From Hyphomicrobiales bacterium (GTDB taxonomy: Bacteria > Pseudomonadota > Alphaproteobacteria > Rhizobiales > Rhizobiaceae), in contig JAFKJU010000015.1 in the NCBI GenBank assembly GCA_017305935.1, positions 124,001 to 188,000 of the forward strand: DNA of 64,000 nucleotides. Reading direction: 5' to 3'. Each line of letters starts with the position of its first letter. The first letter of the stretch is position 1. Position numbers and translations under genes: made by a program. The notes beneath the pieces were generated by a model. It saw only the letters and a program-made list of their open reading frames with translations, searched no databases and was not told the origin of the DNA. Positions 9,250 through 33,976 of the stretch are shown here, in pieces.

Positions 9250-9270
9250 GTGTCATAAATCTGTCATAAA
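9250..9270 (+). promoter_or_regulatory. Pho box (PhoB operator) upstream of the Nudix gene
   Basis: TGTCATAAATCTGTCATAAA at 9251-9270 gives two TGTCAT direct repeats spaced 11 bases apart. That is almost exactly the alphaproteobacterial Pho box (CTGTCAT-N4-CTGTCAT). It ends 51 bases before the Nudix start codon. A TTGACA-like element follows at about 9303. The rest of the 8902-9321 interval shows nothing I can support. Confidence 0.8.
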
Positions 9271-9321: not shown

Positions 9322-9837
9322 ATGAAGTCAAAGAGAAAGGGCGGCAAGTCCCGCCCGGTCACCCCACCTACCCTGTTTCAACAGCTTGCGAAACATCCTG
9401 ACAAGCTGTTCACCGGTGCATTTCGGAAGCAATACGGCGCTCTCTGCTTCCGGTACAGGAAGAGTGACGAGGAGATCGACATTCTGGTGATCACCTCCCG
9501 TGACACCGGGCGCTGGGTCATTCCGAAGGGCTGGCCGATGAAAAAGAAGAAGCCGCATCAAGCGGCAGCGACCGAGGCCTGGGAGGAAGCGGGTGTCCGC
9601 GGCAAGGCCAACAAGACGCCGGTCGGCAGTTATGTCTATCTCAAGGAACTGGACGACGGCGATGTCGCTCCAGTCATCGTCGAGATGTATCAGGTCGAGG
9701 TGACGGAGACCCAGGCGGATTTCAAGGAAAAAGGCCAACGCGTCATCGCCTGGGTCAGCCCGGACGAGGCGGCACGGCGCGTACGCGAGATCGAATTGAA
9801 GTCGCTGCTGGTGAACTTCAAACCGTTGCCCCGCTGA
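9322..9837 (+). CDS. Nudix hydrolase, DIPP-like
   Basis: A 171-residue single-domain Nudix protein. The Nudix box spans residues 70-92, starting GWPMKKKK and ending TEAWEEAGV. The catalytic EExG core (E85, E88, E89, G91) is kept, but the first Glu is Lys (K76) and the Arg is Thr (T84). The preceding WVIPKGWP is typical of diphosphoinositol-polyphosphate/dinucleotide pyrophosphatases. It should hydrolyse a nucleoside- or inositol-linked pyrophosphate in the cytosol. The Pho box upstream predicts induction on phosphate starvation. Its exact substrate is not determinable. Confidence 0.85.
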   Translation: MKSKRKGGKSRPVTPPTLFQQLAKHPDKLFTGAFRKQYGALCFRYRKSDEEIDILVITSRDTGRWVIPKGWPMKKKKPHQAAATEAWEEAGVRGKANKTPVGSYVYLKELDDGDVAPVIVEMYQVEVTETQADFKEKGQRVIAWVSPDEAARRVREIELKSLLVNFKPLPR

Positions 9838-9979
9838 AGGCAGGCGGCAGGGCAACCGCGCCGGCACCGCTGCCGACGGCTTGAGGAAATGGGCCTTTGC
9901 CCGACCATGATGTCGTCCTTCTCAACCGAAAGCCATTCGTCGGGAAGCGTGACGACACCGTCCGGCATCGGGCCGACCG

Positions 9980-10219
9980 TCACCCAGCCTGACGCTTCCA
10001 ATTCTTGTAAGGCGCCAGTTTCTGGCCGGGAAACCGTGTTTCGATTTCGGTTTCGACCTGCGCGATCCGGGCAAGGACATCGCTTGTGTCCTGCCCTGCC
10101 CGCGAGAGCTCCTCGCTCTTCGTCTCCAGATCACGCATCGCCTCGTACAGCTCTTCCTCGGCCATCGCCGAAAGAACGTCTGCGAAAACGGCAGGATCGC
10201 GTTGCATATTCTGCATCAT
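9980..10219 (-). CDS. Small hypothetical coiled-coil protein (79 aa)
   Basis: A 79-residue acidic protein with a long helical, coiled-coil-like centre (AEEELYEAMRDLETKSEELS, then VLARIAQVETEIETRF) and a conserved-looking tail PGQKLAPYKNWKRQ. The start at 10219 has AAGGTGA upstream. I do not recognise a named family; the tail looks like that of small rhizobial proteins. It is isolated between convergent and same-strand genes. Confidence 0.55.
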   Translation of the reverse strand: MMQNMQRDPAVFADVLSAMAEEELYEAMRDLETKSEELSRAGQDTSDVLARIAQVETEIETRFPGQKLAPYKNWKRQAG

Positions 10220-10378
10220 GATTCACCTTGAGAGCGCGGCCATGCAGCCGGATTAGTCCGCCGCCAACACGGAAAGACTTCAGACGCGATGCATCGGCGT
10301 TTACACGCGCTCGCTTCGCGCGGTGGCAGATTCCTGCAATCCCATTGTCCTGGCGGAATGTGCATCCCGCGCCGCCCG

Positions 10379-10801
10379 TCAGCTTTCCGAGCGCTTGCGG
10401 TCATAGAGATGGGTCACCTTGCGTTCGACATCGCGGTCGCCCTCGCTATCGGCGGCTTGGCGCAGCATTTCCGTCAAACGAGCAATCTCCTCCTCGTTCA
10501 GCTTTTCAATGCCGATGAAGCGGTTTTCAGCCGTGGCGGTGGTGAGGATCAGTTCATCGAGCTTGGCTTGCAGAGCCTTGCTATCACGGTTCTGGGAATT
10601 CTGCAGGATGAAAACCATGAGAAATGTGATGATCGTCGTGCCGGTATTGACGACGAGTTGCCACGTTTCGGAGAAGCCGAAAATCGGGCCTGTGATCGCC
10701 CAGACGACGATGGCGATGAAGGCCAGGACAAAGGTTGCGGGCTTGCCGCTCGTTTCCGCCACCAGATTTGAAAATTGGCAGAACGCTTCACTGATACGCA
10801 T
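10379..10801 (-). CDS. Low-affinity iron permease family protein
   Basis: A 140-residue inner-membrane protein with two membrane segments (FVLAFIAIVVWAITGPIFGF and TGTTIITFLMVFILQNSQNR). They are followed by the family's cytosolic KALQAKLDELI helix and a charged tail. This is the bacterial version of the low-affinity iron permease family (PF04120); transport itself is not proven for bacterial members. Start at 10801 (MRISEAF) is supported by GGAGAG upstream. It lies downstream of the glycine-zipper stress protein on the same strand. Confidence 0.82.
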   Translation of the reverse strand: MRISEAFCQFSNLVAETSGKPATFVLAFIAIVVWAITGPIFGFSETWQLVVNTGTTIITFLMVFILQNSQNRDSKALQAKLDELILTTATAENRFIGIEKLNEEEIARLTEMLRQAADSEGDRDVERKVTHLYDRKRSES

Positions 10802-10869
10802 GCACGTCTCTCCGCGCGGGAAATCGATGGAGGCCGGCTCAAGCGCCGGCCTCGGTTTTCTCTTTCCGA

Positions 10870-11463
10870 TCAACGGCGATAGCGAAGACGCTCCTGTTCG
10901 ATTTCGGCCGGGCCATAGGGCGGCAGAGTGTCGTCGAAGCGCGTCCAGCCCTGTTCGTTATAGGCGGCGCGGCGCTCGACCGGATCGACCCAGTTGGACT
11001 GACGCAGGATGCTTTCGGCTTCGGTATAGAGGTCGTCGGCAACGCGGGCGGTGACCAGCGTACCGCCGCGACGGACGCCTTCAGCATAGACATGGGCATT
11101 TTCTTCCGGCACGCCGGAATTGGTCAATGCGCCGATCAGGCCACCGGCAGCGCCGCCGGCAACGGCACCCGCAGCAGCCCCGGCCGCCGTCGCAGCCAGC
11201 CAGCCGGCGGCGACGACCGGCCCGACGCCGGGAATGGCCATGATGCCCAGGCCGGTCAGCAGGCCTCCGATGCCGCCGACGGCCGCGCCGATGCCGGCGC
11301 CCGTGCCAGCCCCTTCGGCAGCGTTCGACTCGCCTTCATAACGGCCGTCCGCATTGTTGGAAACGATGCTGATATCGTCGGACGGAATGCCCCGCGCCTC
11401 CAGCGCGCTGACTGCAGCGCGGGCATCGGAATAGTCGTCGAACAGTCCGGTAACGGTTTTCAT
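10870..11463 (-). CDS. General stress protein with YflT-like domain and glycine-zipper
   Basis: About 197 residues. The N-terminal 50 residues (KTVTGLFDDYSDARAAVSAL, GIPSDDISIVSN) match the general stress protein 17M-like (YflT) fold. A long Gly/Ala-rich segment (about residues 57-130, e.g. GAGIGAAVGGIGGLLTGLG) is a glycine-zipper likely to insert into a membrane. The C-terminus is soluble. Start at 11463 has GGAG upstream. Such proteins are stress-linked; no enzyme activity is evident. Confidence 0.75.
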   Translation of the reverse strand: MKTVTGLFDDYSDARAAVSALEARGIPSDDISIVSNNADGRYEGESNAAEGAGTGAGIGAAVGGIGGLLTGLGIMAIPGVGPVVAAGWLAATAAGAAAGAVAGGAAGGLIGALTNSGVPEENAHVYAEGVRRGGTLVTARVADDLYTEAESILRQSNWVDPVERRAAYNEQGWTRFDDTLPPYGPAEIEQERLRYRR

Positions 11464-11486
11464 TGGCGTGCTCCTCGTATTGGGTG

Positions 11487-11804
11487 TCAGTTGGCGACGA
11501 TATTGCCCTGATAATCCAGGGCGACGTTCATGGACTTGCCGTCCTTCATGGCCGTGCCGCGCCACACGCCTTTGTCATCGAGCTTCAGGCCAGTGACGTC
11601 GGCATAGCCGGCTTCGACGATACGATCCTTGGCCTGGGCCTCGGTAAAGCTGTTGGCGCCTTCGACCGGAGCGGTCGGATTGGAACTGTCGGGTGTCGCT
11701 ACGGCCGGCGTATCGCCGTCGGTTGCCGGAGCGGTCGAGGTCTGCGCAAAGGCAGCAAAAGTCGAAGCGCCGACGAACGCGGCGGCGAGAAGAAGCTTTT
11801 TCAT
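11487..11804 (-). CDS. Exported small protein, PepSY-like
   Basis: A 105-residue secreted protein. The signal peptide is MKKLLLAAAFVGASTFAAFA, cleaved before QTS. A low-complexity Thr/Pro/Ala linker follows (about residues 21-50). The compact C-terminal domain (FTEAQAKDRIVEAGYADVTG, then DKGVWRGTAMKDGKSMNVAL) looks like a PepSY-type fold, found in many alphaproteobacterial periplasmic proteins. Function unknown. It is 23 bases upstream of the glycine-zipper gene and may be co-transcribed with it. Confidence 0.7.
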   Translation of the reverse strand: MKKLLLAAAFVGASTFAAFAQTSTAPATDGDTPAVATPDSSNPTAPVEGANSFTEAQAKDRIVEAGYADVTGLKLDDKGVWRGTAMKDGKSMNVALDYQGNIVAN

Positions 11805-20693: not shown

Positions 20694-22373
20694 TTATTCC
20701 CTGATCAGGCTACTCCGGCGCAAGAGGCTCAGAAACAGCAGCGGCAGGAGTGTCGTCAGGAAGATGGTGACGAAGGCCATGGCCATGCCGAGACCCACCG
20801 AACCCTGTTCGAACTGACGCCAGATGAAGGTGGCGATGGTCTGCATGCCGACCGGCGCGACCACGACGGACGCGACGAGCTCGCGCGAGGCGAGCGCGAA
20901 GACGAGCAGCATTGCCGAGGCAAGGCTCGGGAAGACCAGCGGGATCAGGATGCGCCGGAAGGCGACGGCGCCGGTGGCGCCGAAGACGCGGGCGGCCGCC
21001 TCGAGATTGTCGCCGATCTGCACGAAGGCGGCCGTGGCATAGCGCGCGGTGTGAGGCACGAGAATGCAGCAATAGGCGAGCAGCAGGATGAAACCCGTAT
21101 TATAGGGCGTGAAGGGCAGGCCCGGCATGTTCCAGGCAAGGATCAGTCCGACGGCGACGACGATGCCGGGCAGCGCATTGGGCAGCACCGTCATGATGTC
21201 GATGAGCGCCCGGCCGCGCATGCGCGTCTTGACCACGACATAGGCCGACACGATCCCGATCAGGCCCGTCAGCAGCGCGGTCGCGACGCCGAGCGTCAGG
21301 CTGTTGGCGAGTGCGCCCAGCGCACCGGCGGAATTGCCGAAGACGGCGGCGAAATTGTCGAGCGTCAGATTACCGGGGGAAAGCCCGCCGGAAATCGTTC
21401 GCGACAAAGCGGTGGCGAGAATCGCCAGCATGGGAACGCCCGTCGACAGGAAAGCGATCGCGCCAAAGAGGGCTAGCACCGGCAACTTGAGATAGCCGAG
21501 CGGGCGCTTGTCGGCATTCTGCGGCTTGCCGTTCACGGTCTGGTAGGAACGGCGCGCCAGGATCCAGCGCTGCAGGAGGAAGGCCGCCAGCGACAGGGCG
21601 ACCAGCAGCAGCGACAGCGTGGCCGCTCCCGGCAGATCGATCGGCCAGTCGCCGACGCGCGTATCGATGCCAGTGACGAGGACGTCGAAGCCGGCGCGGC
21701 GGCCGAGCGCCGCGGGCGTGCCGTATTCCTCGATCGCGGCGGCGAAGACGAGCAGCAGGCTCGCGGCCAGCCCCGGCGCAGACAGCGGCAGCGTGATGCG
21801 CCGGAAGGCCCGGGCCGGCGTTGCGCCGAAGACCCGGCCGACATCCGCATAGCGCGCGCCGACCGCCTCCACGGTCCGCGACACGGCAAAATAGACGACC
21901 GGGAAGGTGTTGAAGGTCATGACCAGCGTCATGCCGAGCAGCGAGAAGAGAACGGACGCCAGGTTGAAGCCGAAAAGCTGCTCGAGATAGCCACGCGGCT
22001 GCAGGGTCATGATCCAGCCGAGCGTGGCGATATAGGGCGGGATCATGAAAGGCACGAGCAGCAGCACGTCCCAGACCGGCGCGAGGGGAACGCGGTAGAG
22101 CGCCCGGGCGACGCCGAGCGGGATCGCCAGAAGCGAAGAGGCGATCACCACGCAGGTTCCCAAAAGCACGGTGTTGCCGGTCATGCGCAGGAGTCGCGCA
22201 TCTGCGAGCGTCGTCCCCATAAGCGAGAAGGGCTTCGCGAAGGAGCCCGTTCCGATCTCGGGAAAAATCGCCTGACAGAGGATCGCGACGAAGGGCACGG
22301 CGACGACGACGACGAGACCACCCAAGGCGAACCAGGCCGCTGGCGCGACGCCGCCGATATCCTTCGCATTCAT
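20694..22373 (-). CDS. Double-length ABC transporter permease (FbpB/AfuB/phosphonate type)
   Basis: A 559-residue fused permease with two BPD_transp_1 halves, each about six membrane helices. EAA-type loops appear as ADVGRVFGATPARAFRRITL in the first half and LEAAARVFGATGAVAFRRIL in the second. Such fused permeases serve ferric iron (FbpB), hexose phosphate (AfuB) and 2-aminoethylphosphonate systems. It is the last gene of an operon ATPase-binding protein-permease whose promoter has a Pho box, favouring a phosphorus compound. Start at 22373 lies 10 bases after the binding-protein stop. Confidence 0.85.
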   Translation of the reverse strand: MNAKDIGGVAPAAWFALGGLVVVVAVPFVAILCQAIFPEIGTGSFAKPFSLMGTTLADARLLRMTGNTVLLGTCVVIASSLLAIPLGVARALYRVPLAPVWDVLLLVPFMIPPYIATLGWIMTLQPRGYLEQLFGFNLASVLFSLLGMTLVMTFNTFPVVYFAVSRTVEAVGARYADVGRVFGATPARAFRRITLPLSAPGLAASLLLVFAAAIEEYGTPAALGRRAGFDVLVTGIDTRVGDWPIDLPGAATLSLLLVALSLAAFLLQRWILARRSYQTVNGKPQNADKRPLGYLKLPVLALFGAIAFLSTGVPMLAILATALSRTISGGLSPGNLTLDNFAAVFGNSAGALGALANSLTLGVATALLTGLIGIVSAYVVVKTRMRGRALIDIMTVLPNALPGIVVAVGLILAWNMPGLPFTPYNTGFILLLAYCCILVPHTARYATAAFVQIGDNLEAAARVFGATGAVAFRRILIPLVFPSLASAMLLVFALASRELVASVVVAPVGMQTIATFIWRQFEQGSVGLGMAMAFVTIFLTTLLPLLFLSLLRRSSLIRE

Positions 22374-22383
22374 ACGATCACAC

Positions 22384-23343
22384 TCAGTTGGCGCCGAAGA
22401 TGTCGAAAACCTGCTGCAAGATCTCCTTGCGCTTGCCCTGAACGGCGGCCGCATCGTAGTTCAGCAGCTTCAGGTCGGCGATGAGCGGACGGTCGGCCGG
22501 AACATCGCTGCGGGCCGGCATCAGGAAGGTCTTGGCGACGAGTGCCTGGCCGGCGTCGGACAAAATGTAGTCGACGAACTTCTTCGCCTCGTCCTGGTTT
22601 TTCGACCAGTTGAGGATCATGACCGGACGCGGCGCGATGACCGTGCCCGATTGCGGGAAGATCACGTCGATGCTTTCGCCCTTGGCCTTGTTGCCGAAGG
22701 TGATGTAGTCGACGGCGCCGAAGACGGCGGCCTTGGCGCCCTGCAGCACCGGGTTCAGCGCTTCGGCATTGGCGCCGGCGATGACCGCGCCGTTTGCCTT
22801 CAGGTCCTTGAAGAGCCTGTAATCGTCCTGGCCGGCCAGCGCTGCGGTCAGTTCGAAGGACGAGCCGGACTGCGCCGGATCGGGAATGTTGACGAGGTCC
22901 TTGAATTCCGGCTTGGTGAGGTCGCTCCACTCGGCCGGCTTCGGCGTGCCGCTTTTGGTGTTCCAGGCGATGCCGAGCGCGGAGACGCCCTGCGCGACGG
23001 CGGTGTCGTTCTTCAGGAAGGCCGGGACTTTCTCGGCATTCGGGCTGGCATAGGGCACCAGCCAGCCGCGCTTTGCAAAATCGGTCGCCGTATCCCAGGA
23101 GGCGGAGATGAGGACATCGACCACCGGATTGGCGGCTTCCGCCTCGATGCGGGCCATGACCTTGCCGGTCGTGGCCTGGAAGACGTTCACCTTGACGCCG
23201 GTCTCGGCGGTGAAGCCCTCGGCGAGCTTGTCGATGAGGCTCTGCGGGCCGGCGGTGTAGACGGTGATGTCGGCATGGGCGACGCCAGCCAGAAGCAGCG
23301 TCGATACGGCGCCGGCGACCAGCCCCTTGATCGATTTCAACAT
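22384..23343 (-). CDS. ABC transporter substrate-binding protein (FbpA/AfuA/phosphonate superfamily)
   Basis: A 319-residue periplasmic protein. Signal peptide about residues 1-24, ending VAHAD. The mature N-terminus ITVYTAGPQSLIDKLAEGF and the block FQATTGKVMARIEAEAANPV match the iron/organophosphate-binding superfamily. I do not see the paired-tyrosine iron motif typical of FbpA near its C-terminus (YNYD only). Together with the Pho box this makes a phosphonate or organophosphate cargo more likely than iron. It overlaps the ATPase stop by 7 bases. Confidence 0.82.
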   Translation of the reverse strand: MLKSIKGLVAGAVSTLLLAGVAHADITVYTAGPQSLIDKLAEGFTAETGVKVNVFQATTGKVMARIEAEAANPVVDVLISASWDTATDFAKRGWLVPYASPNAEKVPAFLKNDTAVAQGVSALGIAWNTKSGTPKPAEWSDLTKPEFKDLVNIPDPAQSGSSFELTAALAGQDDYRLFKDLKANGAVIAGANAEALNPVLQGAKAAVFGAVDYITFGNKAKGESIDVIFPQSGTVIAPRPVMILNWSKNQDEAKKFVDYILSDAGQALVAKTFLMPARSDVPADRPLIADLKLLNYDAAAVQGKRKEILQQVFDIFGAN

Positions 23344-24455
23344 GTCACAACCTTCTTTTCTTGCGCATTATGGCTTTCCTCCCCGAACCAGCGGATCCGG
23401 CCGGGGTCTATGGAAAGCCCGATCTGTTCACCGGGGCGCAGCCGCACGGCGCTGAGAAGCTGCAGCTCGACATCCGGCGAGCCGGCGAGCACCACCGTCG
23501 CCAGATGGCCGTCGCCGCGGAACTGGGAGCGCACGACCCTGGCCGGAAGCGTCTTGTGGGACGGTGCGCCGAGCGAGACGGCGGCAAGCGGCAGCAGGAC
23601 CTGCGCCTCGGGGCCGCGCGATGGCGCGACCTCCTGCGCCACCGCCTGGTCGCTGCCGGCGAGAAACCAGGTGCCGCCGCGCCAGGAAAGCCGCGCCGTT
23701 CCGCCGAGCCGCAGGAAATCGGCCACCTCGGCGCTCGCCGGGCGTGCGACCAGATCGTCCGGCGCTGCGAGCTGGGCAATTTCGCCGGCGCGCATGACGG
23801 CGACCTCGTCGGCAAGGGTCAACGCCTCCGCATGGTCGTGGGTGACGTAGATGGCGGTGAGCCGGAGCTCGGAAATCAGGCCGGCAAGCTCGCCCACCAT
23901 GTTTTCGCGCAGCTCGCGATCGAGATTGGACAGCGGCTCGTCGAAGAGGATGAGCTGCGGCTCGGCGACAATGGCCCGGGCAATGGCGACGCGCTGCTGC
24001 TGGCCGCCGGAGAGGTCGCTCGGGCGCCGGCCGGCATAGGCTTCGAGGCCGACGCGCGTGAGGGCGCGCATCGTGCGCGCCTCGCGCTCCGCCCGGGCGA
24101 TACCCCGCATTTCGAGCGGAAAGGCGACATTGCCACCCACCGTAAGATGCGGCCAGAGCGCGTAATCCTGGAAGACCATGCCGAGATTGCGCCGTTCCGG
24201 CGGTGCGAAGAAGCCGGTCTTCGCATCAGCGACCGGCTGGCCGGCGATCCTCACCGTGCCGCGGTTTGGCTGGAGAAGTCCGGCGACGAGCCTGAGAAGC
24301 GTGGTCTTGCCGCAACCCGAGGGGCCGAGCAGCGCAAGCGTCCTGCCCCTCGACAGCGAAAGGTCGATGCCCTTGAGGACGATCGTGTCGCCGTAATGCA
24401 GCGCCAGGTCATGGGCGGATACCGCATCGGCATCCTGATCGGTTTTCTTGGACAT
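23337..24455 (-). CDS. ABC transporter ATP-binding protein (FbpC/PotA-like, TOBE domain)
   Basis: A 372-residue ATPase with C-terminal TOBE-like extension. Walker A is GPSGCGKTT, the Q-loop is in [11 protein letters not shown], the signature LSGGQQQR, Walker [13 protein letters not shown] and the H-loop YVTHDH. It is the first gene of the three-gene operon. Start MSKKTDQD at 24455 is preferred; MPMSKK at 24461 is possible. The Pho box ends 47 bases upstream. Confidence 0.88.
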
Positions 24456-24501
24456 CGGCAAAGGCTTCTTGCAACAGTTGCCGGTGCAATATTCGCCTTG
24501 G

Positions 24502-24519
24502 ATGACAGTTGGATGACGG
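24502..24519 (-). promoter_or_regulatory. Pho box upstream of the ABC operon
   Basis: Read on the minus strand the site is CCGTCAT-CCAA-CTGTCAT, i.e. two (C)NGTCAT repeats with the exact 11-base period of a PhoB site; only one base departs from the CTGTCAT repeats. It lies 47 bases upstream of the ATPase start, a normal place for PhoB-activated promoters. Confidence 0.72.
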
Positions 24520-24593
24520 TTTCAGGCCCGGGAAGTCGGTGCGGTTCTCCGGAGCCTGGCGGAACGGACGATGCCGTCGACCGTCGCGCTCTC

Positions 24594-24899
24594 TCAGGCC
24601 TTTGCCCGTTTGCGCTTCTTGACCAGCGCTTTATCGGCACTTGGCTCACCGACAGCTTCGAGATCGTTCTCGGTCACCGGATCGAGGCGGTGCCTGATGG
24701 CCAACGCATAGACCACCTGCAGGATCTGGGCATCCTTCACATCGGGATCACTCAAGGCAAGCAGCGAAGCCTTCACGATCTTCTTGCTGCTGGCCTTCGG
24801 ACATTCCGCAAGAACATGGCGGTAAAGCGCCTCGTCCACCAACCCCCGCTCCGCACCCGTGATGAGAGCCTCGTAGATCCTGTCAATTTTTCCCGTCAT
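24594..24899 (-). CDS. Hypothetical protein (101 aa)
   Basis: A 101-residue protein, mostly helical, starting MTGKIDRIYEALITGAERGL and containing DEALYRHVLAECPKASSKKI. The C-terminus is strongly basic (KALVKKRKRAKA). I do not recognise a named family. The start at 24899 is supported by GGAG upstream; longer reading back to 24998 lacks a site. It lies between two divergent phosphonate/iron-type ABC operons but 138 bases from the nearest, so it is probably independent. Confidence 0.6.
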   Translation of the reverse strand: MTGKIDRIYEALITGAERGLVDEALYRHVLAECPKASSKKIVKASLLALSDPDVKDAQILQVVYALAIRHRLDPVTENDLEAVGEPSADKALVKKRKRAKA

Positions 24900-25151
24900 T
24901 CCGGAACACTCCAAAATCAAAGCCGACTTGAAACAGGTCGCCAATTCCGGTGTCACAATCAAGAATGCGACACTGCGCAACGGCTGAAATCTGATCAATA
25001 AAGCGACAGGAAGCGGGCGCGGCCTCGTCGACGAACCGTCTGTGCGAAAAAATTCATCGCGTCTGTTTGCTTCCGTTCCGGCACATCAAGGCGCCAAGCC
25101 AGCGTCAATCGCGCCGGGCCAAGCGCGTAACCATGACCGCAACATACGGGG

Positions 25152-25173
25152 CAACGTCATAAAACTGAATCAT
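25152..25173 (+). promoter_or_regulatory. Weak Pho-box-like sequence
   Basis: ACGTCATAAAACTGAATCAT resembles one Pho-box repeat and spacer (GTCATAAAACTG) but the second repeat is disrupted. It lies about 75 bases upstream of the second ABC operon. I list it because the divergent operon carries a better site. The rest of 24900-25248 holds nothing I can support. Confidence 0.25.
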
Positions 25174-25248
25174 GCTGCCGATATTGCGCATCCCAAGACA
25201 ACGGAACGCCGTCCGGGCGCTCCGCAGACGAGGACGAGGGCCGCTTCG

Positions 25249-26325
25249 ATGGCTTCGATTTCCCTTGAGCGCGTCTCCAAGGCCTATGACCGCAAGCAGG
25301 TATTGGACGACGTATCGCTGGATGTGGCGGAGGGTGAATTCGTCGCGATCCTCGGTCCCTCGGGTTGCGGCAAGACCACCATGCTGCGGTTGATCGCGGG
25401 CTTCGAGCAGATCGACGCCGGGGCCATCCGCTTCGGACGCGATGTCATTGCCGCGCCCGGCAGGAGCGTTCCGCCCGAAAAGCGCAATGTCGGCATCGTT
25501 TTCCAGAATTATGCCCTCTGGCCGCATATGAGCGTGGCCGAGAATGTCGGCTATGCGCTCAAGGTCGCCGGCGTATCGTCCGAGATGCGGCGTCGGCGCA
25601 GCGTCGAGGCGCTTGCCACCGTCGACATGGACAGGCTGGCTGATCGTTCGCCGGCCGACCTGTCCGGCGGCCAGCGCCAGCGCGTGGCGCTGGCCCGCTG
25701 CCTGGCCGCCGCGCCCTCCGTGATGCTTCTCGACGAGCCGCTCGCCAATCTCGACGTGCACCTGCGCGCCTCGATGGAGCGGGAATTCTCCGAATTCCAC
25801 CGGCGCACCGGCGCGACCATGATCTACATCACGCACGACCAGTCCGAAGCCATGGCGCTCGCCGACCGCATTGCCGTCATGGATGCGGGCCGGATCGTCC
25901 AGTTCGCCACGCCGCGCGATCTCTACCGCGAGCCCGAGAGCGAGATGGTCGCGCGCTTCATCGGCAACGGGCTGGTCCTGCCGGTCAGCGATCTGCGGGA
26001 GGATACCCGTTCGGGCCGTGTCGAGGTCGATGTCTTCGGCCGGCGCCACACGGTGCGGGCACGATACGGCCAGCCCGCCGCAGCGGCCGCGCGTCTCAGC
26101 GTCCATCCGGACGATCTGCTGCTCGCCGGCGACGAGACTTCCGGCTTCGATGCCGAGGTCGAGTGCATCATCTATCGCGGCAGCCATGTCGAAGTGCATT
26201 TCCACCCGCGCCGCGCACCGGATCTTTCTCTGAGCCTGCACGCACCGCATGACCGGGTGTTCGAGCCCGGTGCGCTCATTTCCGTCCGCGTCGGCGACGG
26301 CTGGGTTCTTCCCGGCGCTGCCTGA
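25249..26325 (+). CDS. ABC transporter ATP-binding protein (FbpC/PotA-like)
   Basis: A 358-residue ATPase with C-terminal TOBE domain. Walker A is GPSGCGKTT, the Q-loop is in IVFQNYALWPH, the signature LSGGQRQR, Walker B VMLLDEPLANLD and the H-loop YITHDQ. It is a paralogue of the ATPase at 23337-24455. Start at 25249 (MASISLERV) gives normal length; the frame is open further upstream without a good start. First gene of an operon continuing through a binding protein, fused permease, MBL protein and phosphatase. Confidence 0.88.
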   Translation: MASISLERVSKAYDRKQVLDDVSLDVAEGEFVAILGPSGCGKTTMLRLIAGFEQIDAGAIRFGRDVIAAPGRSVPPEKRNVGIVFQNYALWPHMSVAENVGYALKVAGVSSEMRRRRSVEALATVDMDRLADRSPADLSGGQRQRVALARCLAAAPSVMLLDEPLANLDVHLRASMEREFSEFHRRTGATMIYITHDQSEAMALADRIAVMDAGRIVQFATPRDLYREPESEMVARFIGNGLVLPVSDLREDTRSGRVEVDVFGRRHTVRARYGQPAAAAARLSVHPDDLLLAGDETSGFDAEVECIIYRGSHVEVHFHPRRAPDLSLSLHAPHDRVFEPGALISVRVGDGWVLPGAA

Positions 26326-26362
26326 GCTTTCCCTTCCTCCCCCGCAAGCAAGAGGTTCTTCC

Positions 26363-27325
26363 ATGCGCTTTCTCACCCTCCTTTCAGCCGTGCTTCTGGC
26401 CGGCGCCGCCCATGCCGAAACGCTCACCCTCTACACGTCGCAATCTCCCGAGATCGCCCAGCAGACGGTGGACGCCTTCCAGGCCAGGCACCCCGAGATC
26501 AAGGTCGAGTGGTCCCGCAACGGCACCAGCCAGTTGCTCAACATCTTGCGCGCGGAAATCGCCGCCGGCGAGGTCAAGCCGGATGTGCTCCTGGTGGCCG
26601 ACACCATCAATCTCGGCCAGCTCAAGGCCGAAGGCCGGCTGATGGCCTATCCGGAAGCCAAGGTGGAAGCCTATGATCCGGCCACCTACGACAAGGACCG
26701 GATGTTCTTCGGCACCAAGATCATCTCCACCGGCATCGCCTACAACACCAAGACGGCAAAGCCCGTCGAGAGCTGGTCGGACCTGCTCGTCGAAGACAAC
26801 CGGGGGCAGATCGCCGTGCCGAGCCCGCTCTATTCCGGCGCGGCCCTGAACCATCTGCACAGCGTCATCGACGTTCAGGGCATCGGCTGGGACTTCTATC
26901 GCAAGCTTGCGGAACTCGGCATCGCGCCCGAAGGCGGCAACGGCCCGGCGCTGAAGGCCGTCGCCAGCGGCCTTGCGAAATACGGCATCATCGCGGATGC
27001 GGATGTGATCCGCGCCAAGGCGAGCGGTTCGCCGGTCGATCTGATCTTCCCCAAGGAGGGCGTTTCCTTCATCACCGAGCCGGTGGCGATCATGTCCACG
27101 GCGAAGGAGCCCAAGGCGGCCAAGGCCTTCGTCGACTTCCTGCTGTCCCCCGAAGGCCAGCAACTCGTGGTGACCCAGGGCAACATGCCGATCGATCCGA
27201 AGGTCGCGCCGCCCAAGGGCTTCCCGGCGCTTTCCGAGATCAAGCTGCTGCCGATGGACGCCGACAAGGCGGTGGAGACCGACGCGCAGGTGCGCGCACG
27301 CTTCGCTGAAATCTTCGGTGGCTGA
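26363..27325 (+). CDS. ABC transporter substrate-binding protein (FbpA/AfuA/phosphonate superfamily)
   Basis: A 320-residue periplasmic protein. The signal peptide MRFLTLLSAVLLAGAAHAE is short and clear. The mature part begins TLTLYTSQSPEIAQQTVDAF and has PDVLLVADTINLGQLKAEGR and KEGVSFITEPVAIMSTAKEP, the family pattern. It lies 37 bases after the ATPase gene, with AGAGG upstream. It is not closely similar to the binding protein at 22384, so the two systems probably carry different ligands. Cargo likely a small anion; a phosphorus compound is inferred only from neighbours. Confidence 0.85.
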   Translation: MRFLTLLSAVLLAGAAHAETLTLYTSQSPEIAQQTVDAFQARHPEIKVEWSRNGTSQLLNILRAEIAAGEVKPDVLLVADTINLGQLKAEGRLMAYPEAKVEAYDPATYDKDRMFFGTKIISTGIAYNTKTAKPVESWSDLLVEDNRGQIAVPSPLYSGAALNHLHSVIDVQGIGWDFYRKLAELGIAPEGGNGPALKAVASGLAKYGIIADADVIRAKASGSPVDLIFPKEGVSFITEPVAIMSTAKEPKAAKAFVDFLLSPEGQQLVVTQGNMPIDPKVAPPKGFPALSEIKLLPMDADKAVETDAQVRARFAEIFGG

Positions 27326-27328
27326 GCG

Positions 27329-29062
27329 ATGACCGACCTTGCGTCCGCCATGCCCGGGGAGCGCCGGCAGTTGCCGGCGTTCCGCATCGAAGCCGAGACG
27401 CTGGCGCTGGTCCTTCTCGTGGCGTTCGTCACCGCAATGTCCATCGCGCCGCTCGCCAGACTGGTTCTCGCCGCGCTGGCGCCGCAGGGCGCGCTGGACC
27501 TTTCCCATGCGTGGGACGTCCTTGCCCGGCCCAAGGTCTTTGTCGCCGCGCTCAATTCGCTGAACGTCGCGCTGCTTTCGACGCTGTTCGCCGTCGTGGT
27601 CGGCGCCTTTGCCGCGATCCTGACCGTGCATTGCAATATGCGCTTCAAGGCTGCCTGGGTGTTCGGCTTCGTGCTGCCCTTGATGATCCCGCCGCAGGTG
27701 ACGGCGCTCGCCTGGGTGCAGGCCTTTTCCCCGACCAGCCCCGTGCTCGGCCTGCTCGGGATGGCGCTCACGCCCGGCAGCCGGCATCCACTGTTTTCCG
27801 CCTGGGGCATCATCCTCCTGCTCGGCGTTTACAATGCGCCGCTCGTCTTCCTCACCGTCCGCGCCGCCCTGCACCGCGTTCCGGCCAATCTTTCGGAAGC
27901 CGCGCGCGCGGCCGGCGCGGGAAGGTCGCGCGTGATCTGGACGATCCTCCTGCCGCTCGCCCGTTCGGGCATTCTCGCCGGCGCGGCGATCGCCTTCGTC
28001 TCGGCGATCGGCAATTTCGGCATCCAGGCCATGCTCGGCATCCCGGCGCGCTTTCCCACCCTCATCACGCTCATCTATCAGACGCTCAACGGCTATGGAC
28101 CGGCCGCATTGTCCGACATGGCCTTGCTGTCGCTCCTGCTGGCGCTGATCACCGTCAGCGGCATCGCGCTCGCCAGCTGGCTCGGTCGGCGCGGCGACCT
28201 GCGGGTGGAAAGCCTCGGGCGTCCGGCCGAGATCGACCTGCGCGGTGCGAAGCGCTGGATCGAAGCCGGCGCATGGCTCTACCTGATCACCACGCTGCTG
28301 CTGCCGCTTTCCGCGCTCTTCGCCACCTCGCTCGTGAAGGGCTTCGGGCAGGAGCTGACATGGACGACCGTGACGCTCGCGAATTATGCAAGCGCCCTTC
28401 TCCGCCAAGCCTCGATTCGCGACGCCTTCGCCACGAGTTTCGTGCTGACCGTCACGACCGTTCTGATCCTCAGCGTGATCTCGCTCTTCCTCGCCTATTT
28501 CCTGAGCTGGCGGCGCGGGCCGGTGGTGCGCGTTCTGCAGATGGCTGCGGAGTTGTCCTATGTCCTGCCCGGTATTGTCCTCGGCGTGGCGATGATCCTT
28601 TTCTTTCTGAAGCCGCTGCCGCTCGTCGGCGTTTCCATCTACGGCACGGTCTGGATCATCCTCGTGGCCTATCTCTCCAACTTCCTTGCCCTGGCGCTAC
28701 GACCGCTGCTCGGCGGTTTCACGCAGATCGACCGCTCTCTGGAAGACGCCGCCCGTATCGCCGGCGCCGGCTTCCTCCAGCGCATGCGCGACATCGTGAT
28801 GCCGCTGCTCGCGCCGGCCATGGTCGCGGGCGCCATCATCGTCTTCATGTCGGCGCTCAACGAAATCCAGGTCTCGATCCTGCTGGTATCGTCCAGCGCG
28901 CGCACCATCGGGCCGATGATCGTGTTCCTCGAGGAAGGTGGCTCCTCGACGCTTGCCGCGGCCGTGGGCTGCCTCATGGTGTTCATCGTTCTGGTGCTGA
29001 TGTCGGTCGCCTCGCTCTTCTCCTCGCGGCTTCCCAAGGGAGCGTTGCCTTGGCTCGATTGA
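27329..29062 (+). CDS. Double-length ABC transporter permease (FbpB/AfuB/phosphonate type)
   Basis: A 577-residue fused permease with two sets of about six helices. EAA-type loops are NLSEAARAAGAGRSRVIWTI in the first half and LEDAARIAGAGFLQRMRDIV in the second. It follows the binding-protein stop by 3 bases. It ends LPKGALPWLD, overlapping the start of the MBL-fold gene by 13 bases, so transport and the two downstream hydrolases are translationally coupled. Confidence 0.87.
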   Translation: MTDLASAMPGERRQLPAFRIEAETLALVLLVAFVTAMSIAPLARLVLAALAPQGALDLSHAWDVLARPKVFVAALNSLNVALLSTLFAVVVGAFAAILTVHCNMRFKAAWVFGFVLPLMIPPQVTALAWVQAFSPTSPVLGLLGMALTPGSRHPLFSAWGIILLLGVYNAPLVFLTVRAALHRVPANLSEAARAAGAGRSRVIWTILLPLARSGILAGAAIAFVSAIGNFGIQAMLGIPARFPTLITLIYQTLNGYGPAALSDMALLSLLLALITVSGIALASWLGRRGDLRVESLGRPAEIDLRGAKRWIEAGAWLYLITTLLLPLSALFATSLVKGFGQELTWTTVTLANYASALLRQASIRDAFATSFVLTVTTVLILSVISLFLAYFLSWRRGPVVRVLQMAAELSYVLPGIVLGVAMILFFLKPLPLVGVSIYGTVWIILVAYLSNFLALALRPLLGGFTQIDRSLEDAARIAGAGFLQRMRDIVMPLLAPAMVAGAIIVFMSALNEIQVSILLVSSSARTIGPMIVFLEEGGSSTLAAAVGCLMVFIVLVLMSVASLFSSRLPKGALPWLD

Positions 29063-30159
29063 CCGCGATCAGTGGTGTCGGCGGTAAGCTGCCGGCCGCC
29101 TTCCTGCTCGAAATCGAAGGAAAGCGGCTGATGCTGGATCTCGGCGAGGGACCGGAGCCCGGCGTGTTCCCCGCCGTGGAGGGTATCGGCGCGGTCGACG
29201 CCATCTGCCTCACGCACGCGCATATGGATCACGCCGGCGCGCTGCACCTGGCGGAGGATCTCGGCAATCCGCCGATCTACGCGACGCAGGCAACCTTCGA
29301 CAATCTCGGGGCACTCGCGCCAGCGGCCACCCGCCGCCGCATCCTGCCGGTGAACGGCCCTGCCGAGATTGCCGGCGTCACGGTCTCGCTTGGCCGCTGC
29401 GGACATGCGCCGGGCGGGGTCTGGTTTCATTTCGCCCATGCGGGCGGCATCCTCTATACGGGGGACTGGAGCGTCGAATCCGCGCTCCTGCCGTTCGATC
29501 CGCCGCCGCCCGCGCATCTTCTCGTCACGGACGCATCCTATGGCGATCGGGATACGAGCCTCACCGACCAGATAGACGCCATTGCCCGAATGGCTGCGGC
29601 GGGCGCGGTCCTGCCGGTTCCAGGCGGTGGGCGCGGACCGGAAATGATCGTGGCGCTTGCCGCCCGGGGCTTGCAGCCACGTGCCTGCCCGCAGATCGGG
29701 CGCGAAATGCAGGCCCTCGCCGAAGACAGCCGCTCGGTGGATGCGGGTGGACGGCAGGCTATGCGGAATTTTCTCGCCAATCCGGTCGATGGCGACTGGC
29801 GCCCGACGGACGTTATCGTCGCGACCGAGGCCAATGCGCAGGCCGGGCTTTCCGCCACGCTTCTACGCCGGCTGGAGGAGGGTTTCCGCTTCATCTTCAC
29901 CAGCCATGTGCCGCGCAACACGCCGGCCCACAGGCTGCTAGCATCCGGCAGGGCCGACTGGCTGCCCTGGAACGTGCATCCCCGCCGGCAAGACGTGCTC
30001 GACCTCGCGGACCGGACCGGCGCAAGCCGGATCATGGCCGCATTCGTGGACCCCGACGCCATGCCGCAACTCGGCGAAAGCCTCGGCAAGCGGCTCATCA
30101 CCGACCGGACGATCACGCTTTCGCCAGTTGCCGGGCATAGCAACGGACAGGACTCATGA
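29050..30159 (+). CDS. MBL-fold metallo-hydrolase (beta-CASP-like arrangement)
   Basis: A 369-residue metallo-beta-lactamase-fold protein. The metal motif is LTHAHMDHAG (HAHMDH, residues 56-61), with further ligands in GHAPGG, LYTGDWS and TDASYGDR. The GDWS/TDASYGD pair and the WNVHPRRQDVLDLA segment recall RNase J/CPSF-type beta-CASP proteins, but no clear RNA-binding KH-like region is seen. It may hydrolyse a phosphodiester. The TTG start at 29050 is preferred because AAGGGAG lies 8 bases upstream; it overlaps the permease stop and its own stop overlaps the phosphatase start (ATGA). Confidence 0.8.
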   Translation: MARLTAISGVGGKLPAAFLLEIEGKRLMLDLGEGPEPGVFPAVEGIGAVDAICLTHAHMDHAGALHLAEDLGNPPIYATQATFDNLGALAPAATRRRILPVNGPAEIAGVTVSLGRCGHAPGGVWFHFAHAGGILYTGDWSVESALLPFDPPPPAHLLVTDASYGDRDTSLTDQIDAIARMAAAGAVLPVPGGGRGPEMIVALAARGLQPRACPQIGREMQALAEDSRSVDAGGRQAMRNFLANPVDGDWRPTDVIVATEANAQAGLSATLLRRLEEGFRFIFTSHVPRNTPAHRLLASGRADWLPWNVHPRRQDVLDLADRTGASRIMAAFVDPDAMPQLGESLGKRLITDRTITLSPVAGHSNGQDS

Positions 30160-30761
30160 TCGCCACCAATACCAAGCCTCTCCTCACAGACGCGCAGGAG
30201 GACGCCACCCCCGTTCTGTTGCCCGTCGTCGACGGCATCAATGCGGAAGGCGCGATCCTCCATATCGGAAACCGCATTGCCGCCGATGATGCGCAACTGC
30301 TTCTCCGCCACGGCATTACCTCGACCATGAACCTGGCCGTGAACATCGAGATGCCCTCGCTCATGCTGCCGGACGGGACGCATGTCCGCCGCACCCATAT
30401 CGGCCTGATCGACGGTCCGGGCAATGTCGCGCAGCATCTTCTGGGCGCGGTGCTTGCGCTTCACGGCATAGCCGAACAGGCAAGCCCCGGAAAAAGCCAT
30501 TACCCGGCGCATCGGAGCGGCAATATCCTGGTCCATTGCCGTGGCGGGCGCAGCCGCTCCGTCACCGTCGTCGCCCTCTATCTCCACCTTTTCCATGCCG
30601 AACGATTTCCGGCTTTCGAGGCAGCGCTCGACCATCTGAGGACGGTGCGCGGCCTGGACGACACTCAGCCTCAGCCCGCCATGCTCGACCTGGCAAGACA
30701 AGCGCTCGACCTTGCCCGGGCGCCTCTTTGCCGGAACCGGCCGACAGCGGAGGCGACCTAA
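30156..30761 (+). CDS. Protein-tyrosine/dual-specificity phosphatase family protein
   Basis: A 201-residue phosphatase of the cysteine-based (DSP-like) superfamily. The P-loop is VHCRGGRSRS, giving Cys128 and Arg134 in CX5R, with Asp86 in HIGLIDGPGN as probable general acid. Members remove phosphate from proteins, inositol phosphates or small phosphoesters. No signal peptide is seen, so it acts in the cytosol on an imported or processed compound, or on a regulator. It is the last gene of the ABC-MBL-phosphatase operon. Confidence 0.8.
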   Translation: MIATNTKPLLTDAQEDATPVLLPVVDGINAEGAILHIGNRIAADDAQLLLRHGITSTMNLAVNIEMPSLMLPDGTHVRRTHIGLIDGPGNVAQHLLGAVLALHGIAEQASPGKSHYPAHRSGNILVHCRGGRSRSVTVVALYLHLFHAERFPAFEAALDHLRTVRGLDDTQPQPAMLDLARQALDLARAPLCRNRPTAEAT

Positions 30762-31893: not shown

Positions 31894-32909
31894 TCACCAG
31901 CCGCGTCTTCCGGCGATCAGCAGCCACAGGAAGAACGGCGCGCCGACCGTTGCCGTCAGGATGCCGAGCGGCACCTCGATATCGGCGATGGAGCGCGCCA
32001 GCATGTCGACGACGAGCAGATAGGCCGCGCCGATAAGCATGGCGACGGGTAGAAGCCGACGGAAATCCGGGCCGACGAGCATGCGGGCGATGTGGGGAAT
32101 AACGAGGCCGATCCAGCCGATGATGCCGGTGACGGAGACAGTCGCTGCCGTCACCAGCGTCGCGCCGCCAATCAGCACGAAACGGGTTCTCGTCGTATCG
32201 ATGTCCAGCGTCCGCGCCTCCTCCTCGCCAAGCGTCAGGAGATTCATGCGCCAGCGCAGCAGCACCAGCGGAGCGAGACCGATGACGACGGCGGGCAGGA
32301 TGGAGAGCACGTCGAAACGGGTAATCGCCGTCATGCTGCCAAGCAGCCAATAGGTGATGGCCGGAAGCTGATCATAGGGATCAGCCAGCACCTTGATCAG
32401 CGATATGCCGGCGCCGACGAGTGCCTGGAGGCGATGCCGGCAAGCACAAGCGTCAGCATGGGATCACGCTCGCGCACCAGCGCGCCCACCGACATCACCA
32501 GGGCCACCACAACGAGGCCGCCGGCAAAGGCGACCAGCTGGATCGCAACCACCGGCAGCGAGAGAAAGATACCCAGCACCGCCCCGAGGCTCGCGCCGAC
32601 CGACACGCCCAGCAGGTCCGGCGAAACCAGCGGATTGCGAAACAACCCCTGATAGGTCGCGCCCGCCGCAGCAAGCCCCGCCCCGACAACGATGGCGGCG
32701 AAAACACGCGGCAGGCGCACGTTCCACAGCACGGTCGCCAGCAGCGGGTCCGACGTCTCGCCCGTCACCAGTTGGCGCAGCGCCGCCAGCAGCGGCTGCG
32801 GACCGCCGCCATATTTGCCGACCATCATGGAGACGAGTGCGAGCGTGCCCAGACCCAGAATGCCGACAACCGCCACCAACAGGCCAGTACGGGTGGCACG
32901 CGCCGGCAT
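31894..32909 (-). pseudogene. FecCD-family permease of the Mo/W transporter, frameshifted
   Basis: Both halves of a FecCD permease are present. The N-terminal part reads VRLPRVFAAIVVGAGLAAAG and NPLVSPDLLGVSVGASLGAV to PMLTLVLAGIAS. The frame then breaks at about 32422-32430, and the C-terminal part resumes in another frame with ADPYDQLPAITYWLLGSM and IGWIGLVIPHIARMLVGPDF. A single missing base explains it, since the shifted frame reads ALVGAGIS where expected. The upstream start at 32909 directly follows the binding-protein stop. No ATPase follows; only a short ATG frame at 31894 of no recognisable content. Confidence 0.8.
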
Positions 32910-33941
32910 CTACTTCGCCGCGCCCTTGCCGAGCAGGGTTGCAAGCTGCGCATCGCCGAGTTCGACCTGGTAGAACAGCTTGAAGAACGTCCGCACCTTT
33001 TCATCGAGTGCTGCCGGGAAAGCCTCCGGATAGAGCAGGTGTTCCAGCCAGGAAACGCCGATGAGGCGATTGATGCCGGGCGGAGAATCGATCCAGCCGA
33101 ACGGCAGACTCGGCGCCGTATGGATACGCCCGGCTTTCACCGCATCCAGTCCCGCCCAAAGCGGATCGGTCTTCACGGCCTTCGCAAATTTCGGCGACGA
33201 CGCGAGAATGACATCCGGTTTCCACGACAGAACCTGTTCGAGCGAGACTTGGGTGAGACCGCCTTTGCCGGCAGCCGCCGCGACATTGCGCGCACCGACG
33301 GCCTCGAGGATTTCCATGTTGATCGAGCCGGAGAGTCCGGTCTCGAGGCCTTCCGCGCCGCGACCGTAATAGACCGAAGGGCGCTTTTCGCCAGGGATGC
33401 CGGCGAGACCCTTTTCCAGCGCCGCGAGCGTCTGGTCGGCATAGGCGGCGAGCGTTTCGGCCCTTACCTCGACGCCGAGAATGGCACCGGTTTCGCGCAG
33501 CGTCGCACCGCTCTTTGCAAAGGCGCCATCGATCAGCACATAGGGAATGCCGGTCTGCGCCTGCACCTTGTCGGCCAGCGAGGCATAGGTCGGGTTCATC
33601 GTGCCGACATCGATGATGATGTCGGGCTTGGCCGCCAGCACCGCCTCGATATTGGCCGTGCCGCCCTTGCCGGTGAGTTGACCGAAACTGGGAAGATCGC
33701 GCACGGCCGGCAGAAGGAATTCCTTTTCCTCCGCCTTCGGCTCCCGCACCCAGCCGGCAAGCTTGTCCGGCGCCAGCACATAGACGAGCACCGAGGCTGG
33801 CGGGCCTGCGGCAAGCACCCGCTCGACCCTGTCGGGGATCTCGACCACGCGCCCGGCGGCATCGGTGATGCTGCGGGCGGCAGCCGGCAGGAACGATAAA
33901 AGCAGGGCGACCAGGACGACGACGCTACGCAGGGCCGGCAT
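32910..33941 (-). CDS. ABC transporter substrate-binding protein, FecB/TroA-like, predicted molybdate/tungstate
   Basis: A 343-residue periplasmic protein. The signal peptide VVVLVALLLSFLPAAARS is clear. Then come SITDAAGRVVEIPDRVERVL, the ASVLVYVLAPDKLAGWV segment, and DIIIDVGTMNPTYASLADKV, characteristic of FecB/TroA-fold proteins that bind oxyanions or siderophores. The 24-bp ModE-like palindrome right at its start, together with moeA and molbindin, makes Mo/W the best guess (MolA type). Start at 33941 has GGAGAG upstream. Its partner permease is frameshifted. Confidence 0.8.
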   Translation of the reverse strand: MPALRSVVVLVALLLSFLPAAARSITDAAGRVVEIPDRVERVLAAGPPASVLVYVLAPDKLAGWVREPKAEEKEFLLPAVRDLPSFGQLTGKGGTANIEAVLAAKPDIIIDVGTMNPTYASLADKVQAQTGIPYVLIDGAFAKSGATLRETGAILGVEVRAETLAAYADQTLAALEKGLAGIPGEKRPSVYYGRGAEGLETGLSGSINMEILEAVGARNVAAAAGKGGLTQVSLEQVLSWKPDVILASSPKFAKAVKTDPLWAGLDAVKAGRIHTAPSLPFGWIDSPPGINRLIGVSWLEHLLYPEAFPAALDEKVRTFFKLFYQVELGDAQLATLLGKGAAK

Positions 33942-33952
33942 GAGACTCTCCA

Positions 33953-33976
33953 ACGATATATTTCCAGAAATATATC
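33953..33976. promoter_or_regulatory. ModE-like operator (copy 2), perfect 11-bp inverted repeat
   Basis: CGATATATTTC (33953-33963) and GAAATATATCG (33966-33976) are perfect inverted repeats with a 2-base centre (CA). In the 9-6-9 view the arms are CGATATATT and AATATATCG, near-identical to copy 1. It starts 12 bases upstream of the binding-protein ATG, where a bound repressor would block transcription or initiation. Confidence 0.72.

Follow-up and report, generated by a model that had tools for sequence, protein, structure and literature searches.

Several importers of organic phosphorus compounds have been described. The Acc operon of Agrobacterium tumefaciens encodes an importer with the binding protein AccA, the phosphodiesterase AccF and the putative phosphatase AccG, and AccR, the DeoR-family repressor of this agrocinopine operon, responds to the phosphomonoester and not to the diester (PMC4526662). 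AfuA, originally predicted to serve an iron transporter, proved to be a sugar-phosphate carrier that binds glucose-6-phosphate, with H205, D206 and E229 contacting the sugar (PMC4546632), and P5PA binds pyridoxal phosphate (PMC8427247). The aepXVW genes for 2-aminoethylphosphonate import typically adjoin phnWX or phnWAY, and AepX of P. putida is PhoBR-dependent (PMC8316502). Here, we analyzed a stretch of 64,000 nucleotides from a Hyphomicrobiales bacterium (assembly GCA_017305935.1, contig JAFKJU010000015.1, positions 124,001 to 188,000), hereafter called the window. It contains two back-to-back importer operons, A (–) and B (+). Operon B, which couples an ATP-binding cassette (ABC) importer to a metallo-β-lactamase (MBL)-fold hydrolase and a phosphatase, is one version of a recurrent and widespread gene module.

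The module in the window consists of five genes on the + strand: an ATPase with a TOBE domain (25249-26325; PF00005, PF08402), the substrate-binding protein SBP2 (26363-27325; SBP_bac families, signal peptide by reading), a fused permease (27329-29062; PF00528 in two stretches), an MBL-fold hydrolase of a compact β-CASP type with a TTG start (29050-30159; assigned by family profile, structure model and residues), and a Cys-dependent phosphatase of the dual-specificity (DSP) type (30156-30761; PF22784). The permease and MBL genes overlap by 13 bases and the MBL and phosphatase genes by an ATGA; by the coordinates of the open reading frames (ORFs), genes, strands and junctions are as an earlier note on this DNA had given them.

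A profile built from 16 members (E 1e-40) was run against three overlapping genome samples, each including the genome of the window. It detected this MBL family in 51 of 394 genomes at the level of the family, 8 of 385 at that of the class and 17 of 398 in the sample of the phylum. The following analysis is based on 76 loci, 67 from other genomes (G774 being represented by one of two pieces) and nine from the 59 plasmid records with a match. Closely related loci were counted separately unless stated, and two plasmid stretches without annotation (L306, L307) were excluded from the counts. For loci without published annotation, simple ORFs served as gene calls and family labels were assigned by BLAST against a few references. 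In 71 of the 76 loci, genes for a binding protein, a fused permease and an ATPase lie within 6 kb of the MBL gene on the same strand, and a phosphatase gene was found at 68. The five exceptions to the importer association are L030, which by reading has a peptide-type ABC operon, L037, L147 and L235, where the ATPase was not found, and L038, which is cut by a contig end. Lack of this association in other genomes had been named beforehand as one of the outcomes on which the earlier note's idea should fail; instead, it is conserved. Chance adjacency of importer and MBL was rejected based on the 71 co-locations and the enrichment of Pho boxes described below. Named members belong to Rhizobiales, Rhodobacterales, Azospirillum and Enterobacter. 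Of the 21 relatives with a DSP-type phosphatase, 12 share the 13-base overlap of the permease and MBL genes, as do L139 and L140 by published annotation, and L036 has a gap; the junction was resolved in all but six of the 21. The open-access literature, to which our search was confined at the exclusion of subscription papers, yielded no earlier description of the module, and to this extent the claim that no system of exactly this make-up has been described holds.

Two of these loci are worth mentioning separately. L143 (3204-8607) lies on a conjugative plasmid of Enterobacter hormaechei and combines the module in its histidine phosphatase (HisPhos) form with a Pho-box-like repeat. In L030 (about 9421-11500), the apparent peptide-type ABC operon takes the place of the importer, and attached to it is an MBL-SurE unit with a divergent SorC gene, so that MBL and phosphatase look like a pair. 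A scan of named genomes with an MBL profile returned at least 69 loci with no more than 38% identity over part of the query; these look like generic MBL proteins and were discarded, except that ten of them served as distant rows for the structure model only.

The phosphatase is the variable part of the module. It is of the DSP type in 21 loci, SurE in 26, HisPhos in ten, HisPhos together with a HAD protein in nine and HAD alone in two; none was found in the remaining eight, three of them truncated at a contig end (L038, L233 and L234) and five not (L037, L147, L220, L235 and L240). The phosphatase of the window matches PF22784 with 31.6 bits (cut-off 27), stays below the cut-off of DSPc (PF00782) and carries HCRGGRSRS, in agreement with the HCX5R[ST] signature of Cys-dependent phosphatases, which bears out its earlier identification as such an enzyme. 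Pfam confirmed SurE, His_Phos_1 and HAD_PNKP in the representatives tested. Catalytic residues are kept in all types: C128 to S135 in 22 of 22 DSP rows (the His preceding the Cys falls under the 95% conservation line), the Asp pair in all 26 SurE proteins, Arg-His and a late His in all 19 histidine phosphatases, and D32 and D34 in all 11 HAD proteins. The presence of unrelated phosphatase folds at the same place points to one shared reaction, the hydrolysis of a phosphomonoester.

Phosphatase type and regulator type go together across the loci. A LacI gene lies beside 13 of the 21 DSP loci, a SorC gene beside 18 of the 26 SurE loci (and beside the contig-cut L233), and a DeoR gene beside all 11 HAD-containing loci; no regulator match over 100 bits was seen alongside the ten HisPhos-only loci. 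The best family matches are DeoR of Bacillus for the SorC type and RbsR for the LacI type, both below the equivalog cut-offs, and GlpR is closest to the DeoR-family regulator. In a quick tree of 95 binding proteins, to which 19 of 20 fetched sister loci contributed a usable binding-protein ORF, the DSP loci form one starred group (23 rows, including the window and L240), as do the SurE loci (28 rows, including L220, L233 and L234) and the HisPhos loci with another gene order (10 rows, including L147). A further group unites the HisPhos+HAD and HAD-alone loci with L143, the HisPhos locus from Enterobacter, and also contains three MBL-free importers (support 93, but not starred). Explaining which importers have the MBL and which do not takes two changes of state; the root is unsure because of a very long outgroup branch.

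We then considered the MBL. Compared with the PDB, its family profile has its best match in CPSF73 (E 1.5e-31), and YSH1, TTHA0252, archaeal CPSF, Integrator 11 and Cas14 are also found. CPSF-type nucleases span E 1.5e-31 to 6e-14, followed by a lactamase (7e-11), Apyc1 (1.3e-10), RNase J (2e-8) and glyoxalase II (7e-8). Apyc1 is an MBL protein that hydrolyzes cyclic nucleotides. An AlphaFold2 model (pTM 0.73, mean pLDDT 68) superimposes on CPSF3/CPSF73 chains with TM scores of 0.71-0.75 by query length (0.74 for CPSF3) and a root-mean-square deviation of 5-7 Å; it was built on β-CASP relatives and may lean to that fold, a bias that the profile search does not share. The metal ligands HxHxDH, H119 and D139 are present in 77 of 77 MBL rows, and a late His (H310) in 74, some rows being truncated. 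By reading, neither MBL nor phosphatase has a visible signal peptide, so both should act after import.

Taken together, these genes probably serve to import a small phosphodiester, which the MBL would cleave before the phosphatase frees its phosphate, and in many relatives this route may be controlled by PhoB and by a repressor sensing the monoester. The organophosphate taken up by SBP2, the fused permease and the ATPase would be small and most likely a phosphodiester. Once in the cytoplasm, it would be cut by the β-CASP-type MBL to an alcohol and a phosphomonoester, from which the co-encoded phosphatase would release inorganic phosphate. In the relatives, a LacI, SorC or DeoR repressor would probably sense this monoester or its sugar, and PhoB would turn on many of the operons under phosphate shortage.

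Relatives of these proteins offer clues to the putative diester. One of the HAD proteins is similar to the phosphatase domain of polynucleotide kinase (PF25109), and the histidine phosphatase resembles α-ribazole phosphatase, below the equivalog cut-off. Relatives with roles in nucleotide metabolism exist for SurE, this PNKP-like HAD, the CPSF-like MBL and the SorC/LacI regulators, and on these grounds the boldest candidate is a nucleotide diester. We tentatively consider that the module could be dedicated to importing cyclic nucleotides or small fragments of nucleic acid and degrading them for their phosphorus, a possibility we hold with limited confidence. A β-CASP nuclease would then have been recruited from RNA processing into nutrition, together with whichever nucleotide phosphatase was at hand: SurE as a 5′/3′-nucleotidase, the PNKP-like HAD, the α-ribazole-phosphatase-like HisPhos or the DSP. 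The similarity of the DeoR-family regulator to GlpR rather suits a glycerol or sugar phosphodiester.

UlaG is a ring-opening MBL, and PhnP hydrolyzes a cyclic phosphate. The module could import a sugar phosphate, either as such or as a lactone or cyclic form, with the MBL opening a ring instead of cutting a diester and the phosphatase again freeing phosphate. A binding protein distantly related to the sugar-phosphate-binding AfuA, regulators from sugar-sensing families and a weak, partial match of the L143 MBL to PhnP (E 4.3e-5 over 57 residues) would fit such a reaction, but we regard it as rather unlikely, given that the profile ranks CPSF-type nucleases before lactamases and glyoxalase II (RNase J, which is also β-CASP, comes after the lactamases) and that no UlaG or PhnP chain is named among the 60 of 149 PDB matches listed. 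The nuclease-like MBL and the PNKP-like HAD could also be taken as an RNA-repair or defense pair that is co-transcribed with the importer by chance. With importer genes in 71 of 76 loci, Pho boxes, and no PADLOC match for the five proteins tested, this would be a most surprising outcome.

To look for control by PhoB, we looked for CTGTCAT-N4-CTGTCAT repeats agreeing in 11 or more of the 14 bases at spacing 4, within the 300 bases preceding the module and the first 30 bases inside it. On the coding strand, such boxes precede 24 of the 76 modules, compared with 1-6 for ten other spacings, one of 76 on the other strand, and a mean of 1.08 (maximum 4) in 100 dinucleotide shuffles. Among neighboring ORFs of at least 200 amino acids, only 4 of 346 have a box on the coding strand (Fisher p 5e-16). 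The boxes are found in DSP (7/21), SurE (10/26), HisPhos (4/10) and HisPhos+HAD loci (2/9) and in one of the eight loci where no phosphatase was found, but in neither HAD-alone locus. If loci are grouped by genus and type and every plasmid is treated as a separate group, at least one box is present in 17 of 46 groups, 13 of which have it in most members. In L227 and L241, the box lies 17 bases into the first ORF, probably because the start of that ORF was called too early. Boxes also precede 6 of the 19 sister importers without MBL, so that the importer family itself looks phosphorus-linked. None of the PhoB-dependent transporters in the accessible part of a proteomic study of Phaeobacter sp. 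MED193 (PMC10132767) was matched to the module.

A number of observations weigh against a PhoB-controlled phosphodiester route. For operon B of the window no box of its own was found: the best site reaches 9/14, a score equaled in 148 of 200 mononucleotide shuffles. Control of the MBL operon by a Pho box is thus not supported for this genome; the box found here precedes operon A. Moreover, 52 of the 76 modules lack a strong box, and on the reverse strand the repeat occurs at 20 of 346 neighboring ORFs, a number that includes an expected but not separated share from genes divergent to the module. No regulator gene lies beside the module of the window; in particular, an adjacent LacI gene is missing, and the only LacI match of the genome at E 1e-30 is 38% identical. 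Five loci uncut by a contig end (L037, L147, L220, L235 and L240) have no phosphatase that we could find, three of them also no ATPase, and no such MBL or phosphatase enzymes were seen near the sister importers without MBL. The possible lean of the MBL model and two features of SBP2 described below, its iron-named best match and its partial phosphate site, belong on the same side. The earlier proposal of import and dephosphorylation of an organic phosphorus compound is favored by the conserved association, the boxes of the relatives and the missing iron-site Tyr pair, but not by a box at the MBL operon itself.

FbpA-type ferric binding proteins hold iron through a Tyr-Tyr site. SBP1, the binding protein of operon A, reads VDY where FbpA has NYYW and has no such pair; aligned through SBP1, SBP2 and three relatives show YG[IV]-containing segments, again without a Tyr pair. 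This supports the doubts already raised about the ferric-iron label of the family. Among the best PDB matches of SBP1 are AfuA (4r72, E 4.7e-23) and P5PA (6wce, 2.7e-20), whereas SBP2 matches best to 7f6u, which is named iron-binding (E 4.6e-13), and then to AfuA (4r72, 9e-13). We compared the positions S37, G38, T60, S148, G149 and T150, which contact the phosphate in AfuA. In a phmmer alignment, SBP1 has all six kept or exchanged between Ser and Thr; SBP2 keeps S37 (as Thr), S148 and G149 but not G38, T60 and T150, about half of the phosphate positions. At the sugar site, SBP1 has kept the Asp but not H205 and E229, and SBP2 aligns an Asp, which one differing between two alignments, but neither His nor Glu.

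An importer of ferric iron, with unrelated enzymes riding along, would agree with the database names, since automatic annotation reads “iron ABC transporter permease” in most plasmid records examined, and with 7f6u and the Fec-type importers nearby in the window. Considering the missing Tyr pair, the Pho boxes, the conserved phosphatases and the precedent of AfuA, we think this very improbable. A 2-aminoethylphosphonate importer of the PhnSTUV/AepXVW kind also appears distinctly unlikely: PhnS2 and PhnU2 are the best NCBIfam matches of SBP2 and the permease, but with scores far below the cut-offs (117.6 of 392.75 bits and 146.8 of 593.25 bits), and no phosphonate-cleaving gene was recognized, judged from first residues, among the neighbor clusters present in at least three loci.

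Operon A encodes an ATPase with a TOBE domain (23337-24461, –; PF00005, PF08402), SBP1 (22384-23343, –; assigned by PDB matches and residue alignment) and a fused permease with two BPD domains (20694-22454, –; PF00528 in two stretches), which by reading likely starts at 22373. The ATPase and binding-protein genes overlap by 7 bases. Upstream, at 24502-24519 (–), lies an 11-base direct repeat, CCGTCATCCAACTGTCAT, with one mismatch to CTGTCAT-N4-CTGTCAT. It has the period of a PhoB box as noted earlier, but its distance from the TTG start of the ATPase is 40 bases and not 47. The whole genome contains 7 sites with at most one mismatch and 37 with at most two, compared with 5 for a reversed control pattern. 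Orthologues of operon A were found in 12 of 199 genomes searched, and 20 loci were read. Boxes of at least 11/14 at spacing 4 occur in 13 of the 20, compared with 0-2 at ten other spacings and a mean of 0.12 (maximum 2) in 200 mononucleotide shuffles; they lie 38-58 bases before the ATPase start in 10 of the 13 and 97-121 bases before it in L300, L322 and L329. This conserved upstream repeat would place operon A in the Pho regulon, and we regard the operon as a separate, conserved and putatively PhoB-controlled importer of the AfuA/P5PA branch.

That the two importers form one unit is not supported. The stretches examined around the 20 operon A loci contain no match (E 1e-12) to the MBL or phosphatase of the module; an MBL-fold gene annotated near operon A in L298, on the opposite strand, is a different one and does not match the module MBL. 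Operon A and the MBL module occur together in 6 of the 12 operon A genomes (G000, G018, G078, G081, G542 and G545), compared with 51 of 394 in the family, but in the five besides that of the window they lie on different contigs of draft assemblies, so that the link is one of co-occurrence at most. No common hydrolase was seen downstream of operon A in 12 loci read. A metallophosphoesterase gene stands beside it in two of six annotated loci, L145 (8824-9585, Shinella sp. WSC3-e) and L299 (7637-8404, Paracoccus aminophilus), but not in L298, L300, L301 and L303; in L330, an ORF reading like a metallophosphoesterase follows 959 bases on. Near operon A, L304 and L305 share a convergent SDR oxidoreductase gene, which the annotation of L298 also lists. 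In L295 (genome G108), the operon A orthologue adjoins a non-MBL sister of the operon B importer.

The genome holding the window comprises 6.55 Mb in 108 contigs, and Shinella plasmids match parts of the region with 92% and 89% DNA identity, which suggests that the host is probably a member of this genus of the Rhizobiaceae. Operons A and B are divergent as described before but not directly adjacent: between them lies an ORF of 134 amino acids (24594-24998, –) without match in Pfam, NCBIfam or PADLOC. Another strong Pho box with one mismatch, GTGTCATAAATCTGTCAT, is located at 9250-9267 (+), 54 bases before an ORF (9322-9837, +) that by reading resembles a NUDIX hydrolase. Next to a binding-protein ORF (32910-33953), a Fec-type permease seems to be divided into two ORFs (32397-32909 and 31894-32391, –), by reading probably a broken gene.

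Iron transport is the usual annotation for importers of this superfamily, and the module provides a concrete, testable case for renaming one branch. The recurrence of the same gene set with swapped, unrelated phosphatases suggests that these bacteria obtain phosphorus from organic molecules they import, by a route not yet described. If true, an intracellular route, with import first and hydrolysis later, would be added to the known bacterial uses of organic phosphorus, and if the MBL is a catabolic phosphodiesterase, β-CASP enzymes would have a role outside nucleic-acid processing.

Four known systems can be compared with the module. With the β-CASP nucleases CPSF73, TTHA0252 and RNase J, its MBL has fold and metal site in common, but with about 370 residues it is shorter than the CPSF73 core and is encoded in a transport operon; we know of no other transporter-linked β-CASP enzyme. 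PhnSTUV/AepXVW belong to the same transporter superfamily, whereas the module proteins score far below the family cut-offs and phosphonate catabolic genes were not recognized nearby. AfuABC and P5PAB share their binding-protein superfamily with SBP1 and SBP2, SBP1 having the phosphate-facing positions of AfuA, but neither is known to come with an MBL or phosphatase, and the word “phosphatase” occurs in neither main text (PMC4546632, PMC8427247). The Acc operon combines an ABC importer, a phosphodiesterase, a putative phosphatase and a DeoR-family repressor, gene classes for which relatives of the module have counterparts by predicted function. In Acc, the binding protein AccA is larger and of the peptide type, and the phosphodiesterase AccF belongs to another enzyme family, in contrast to the FbpA/AfuA-kind binding protein, β-CASP-type MBL, several phosphatase folds and, at many loci, PhoB boxes of the module. 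By analogy, the module most likely works like Acc, with which we do not equate it.

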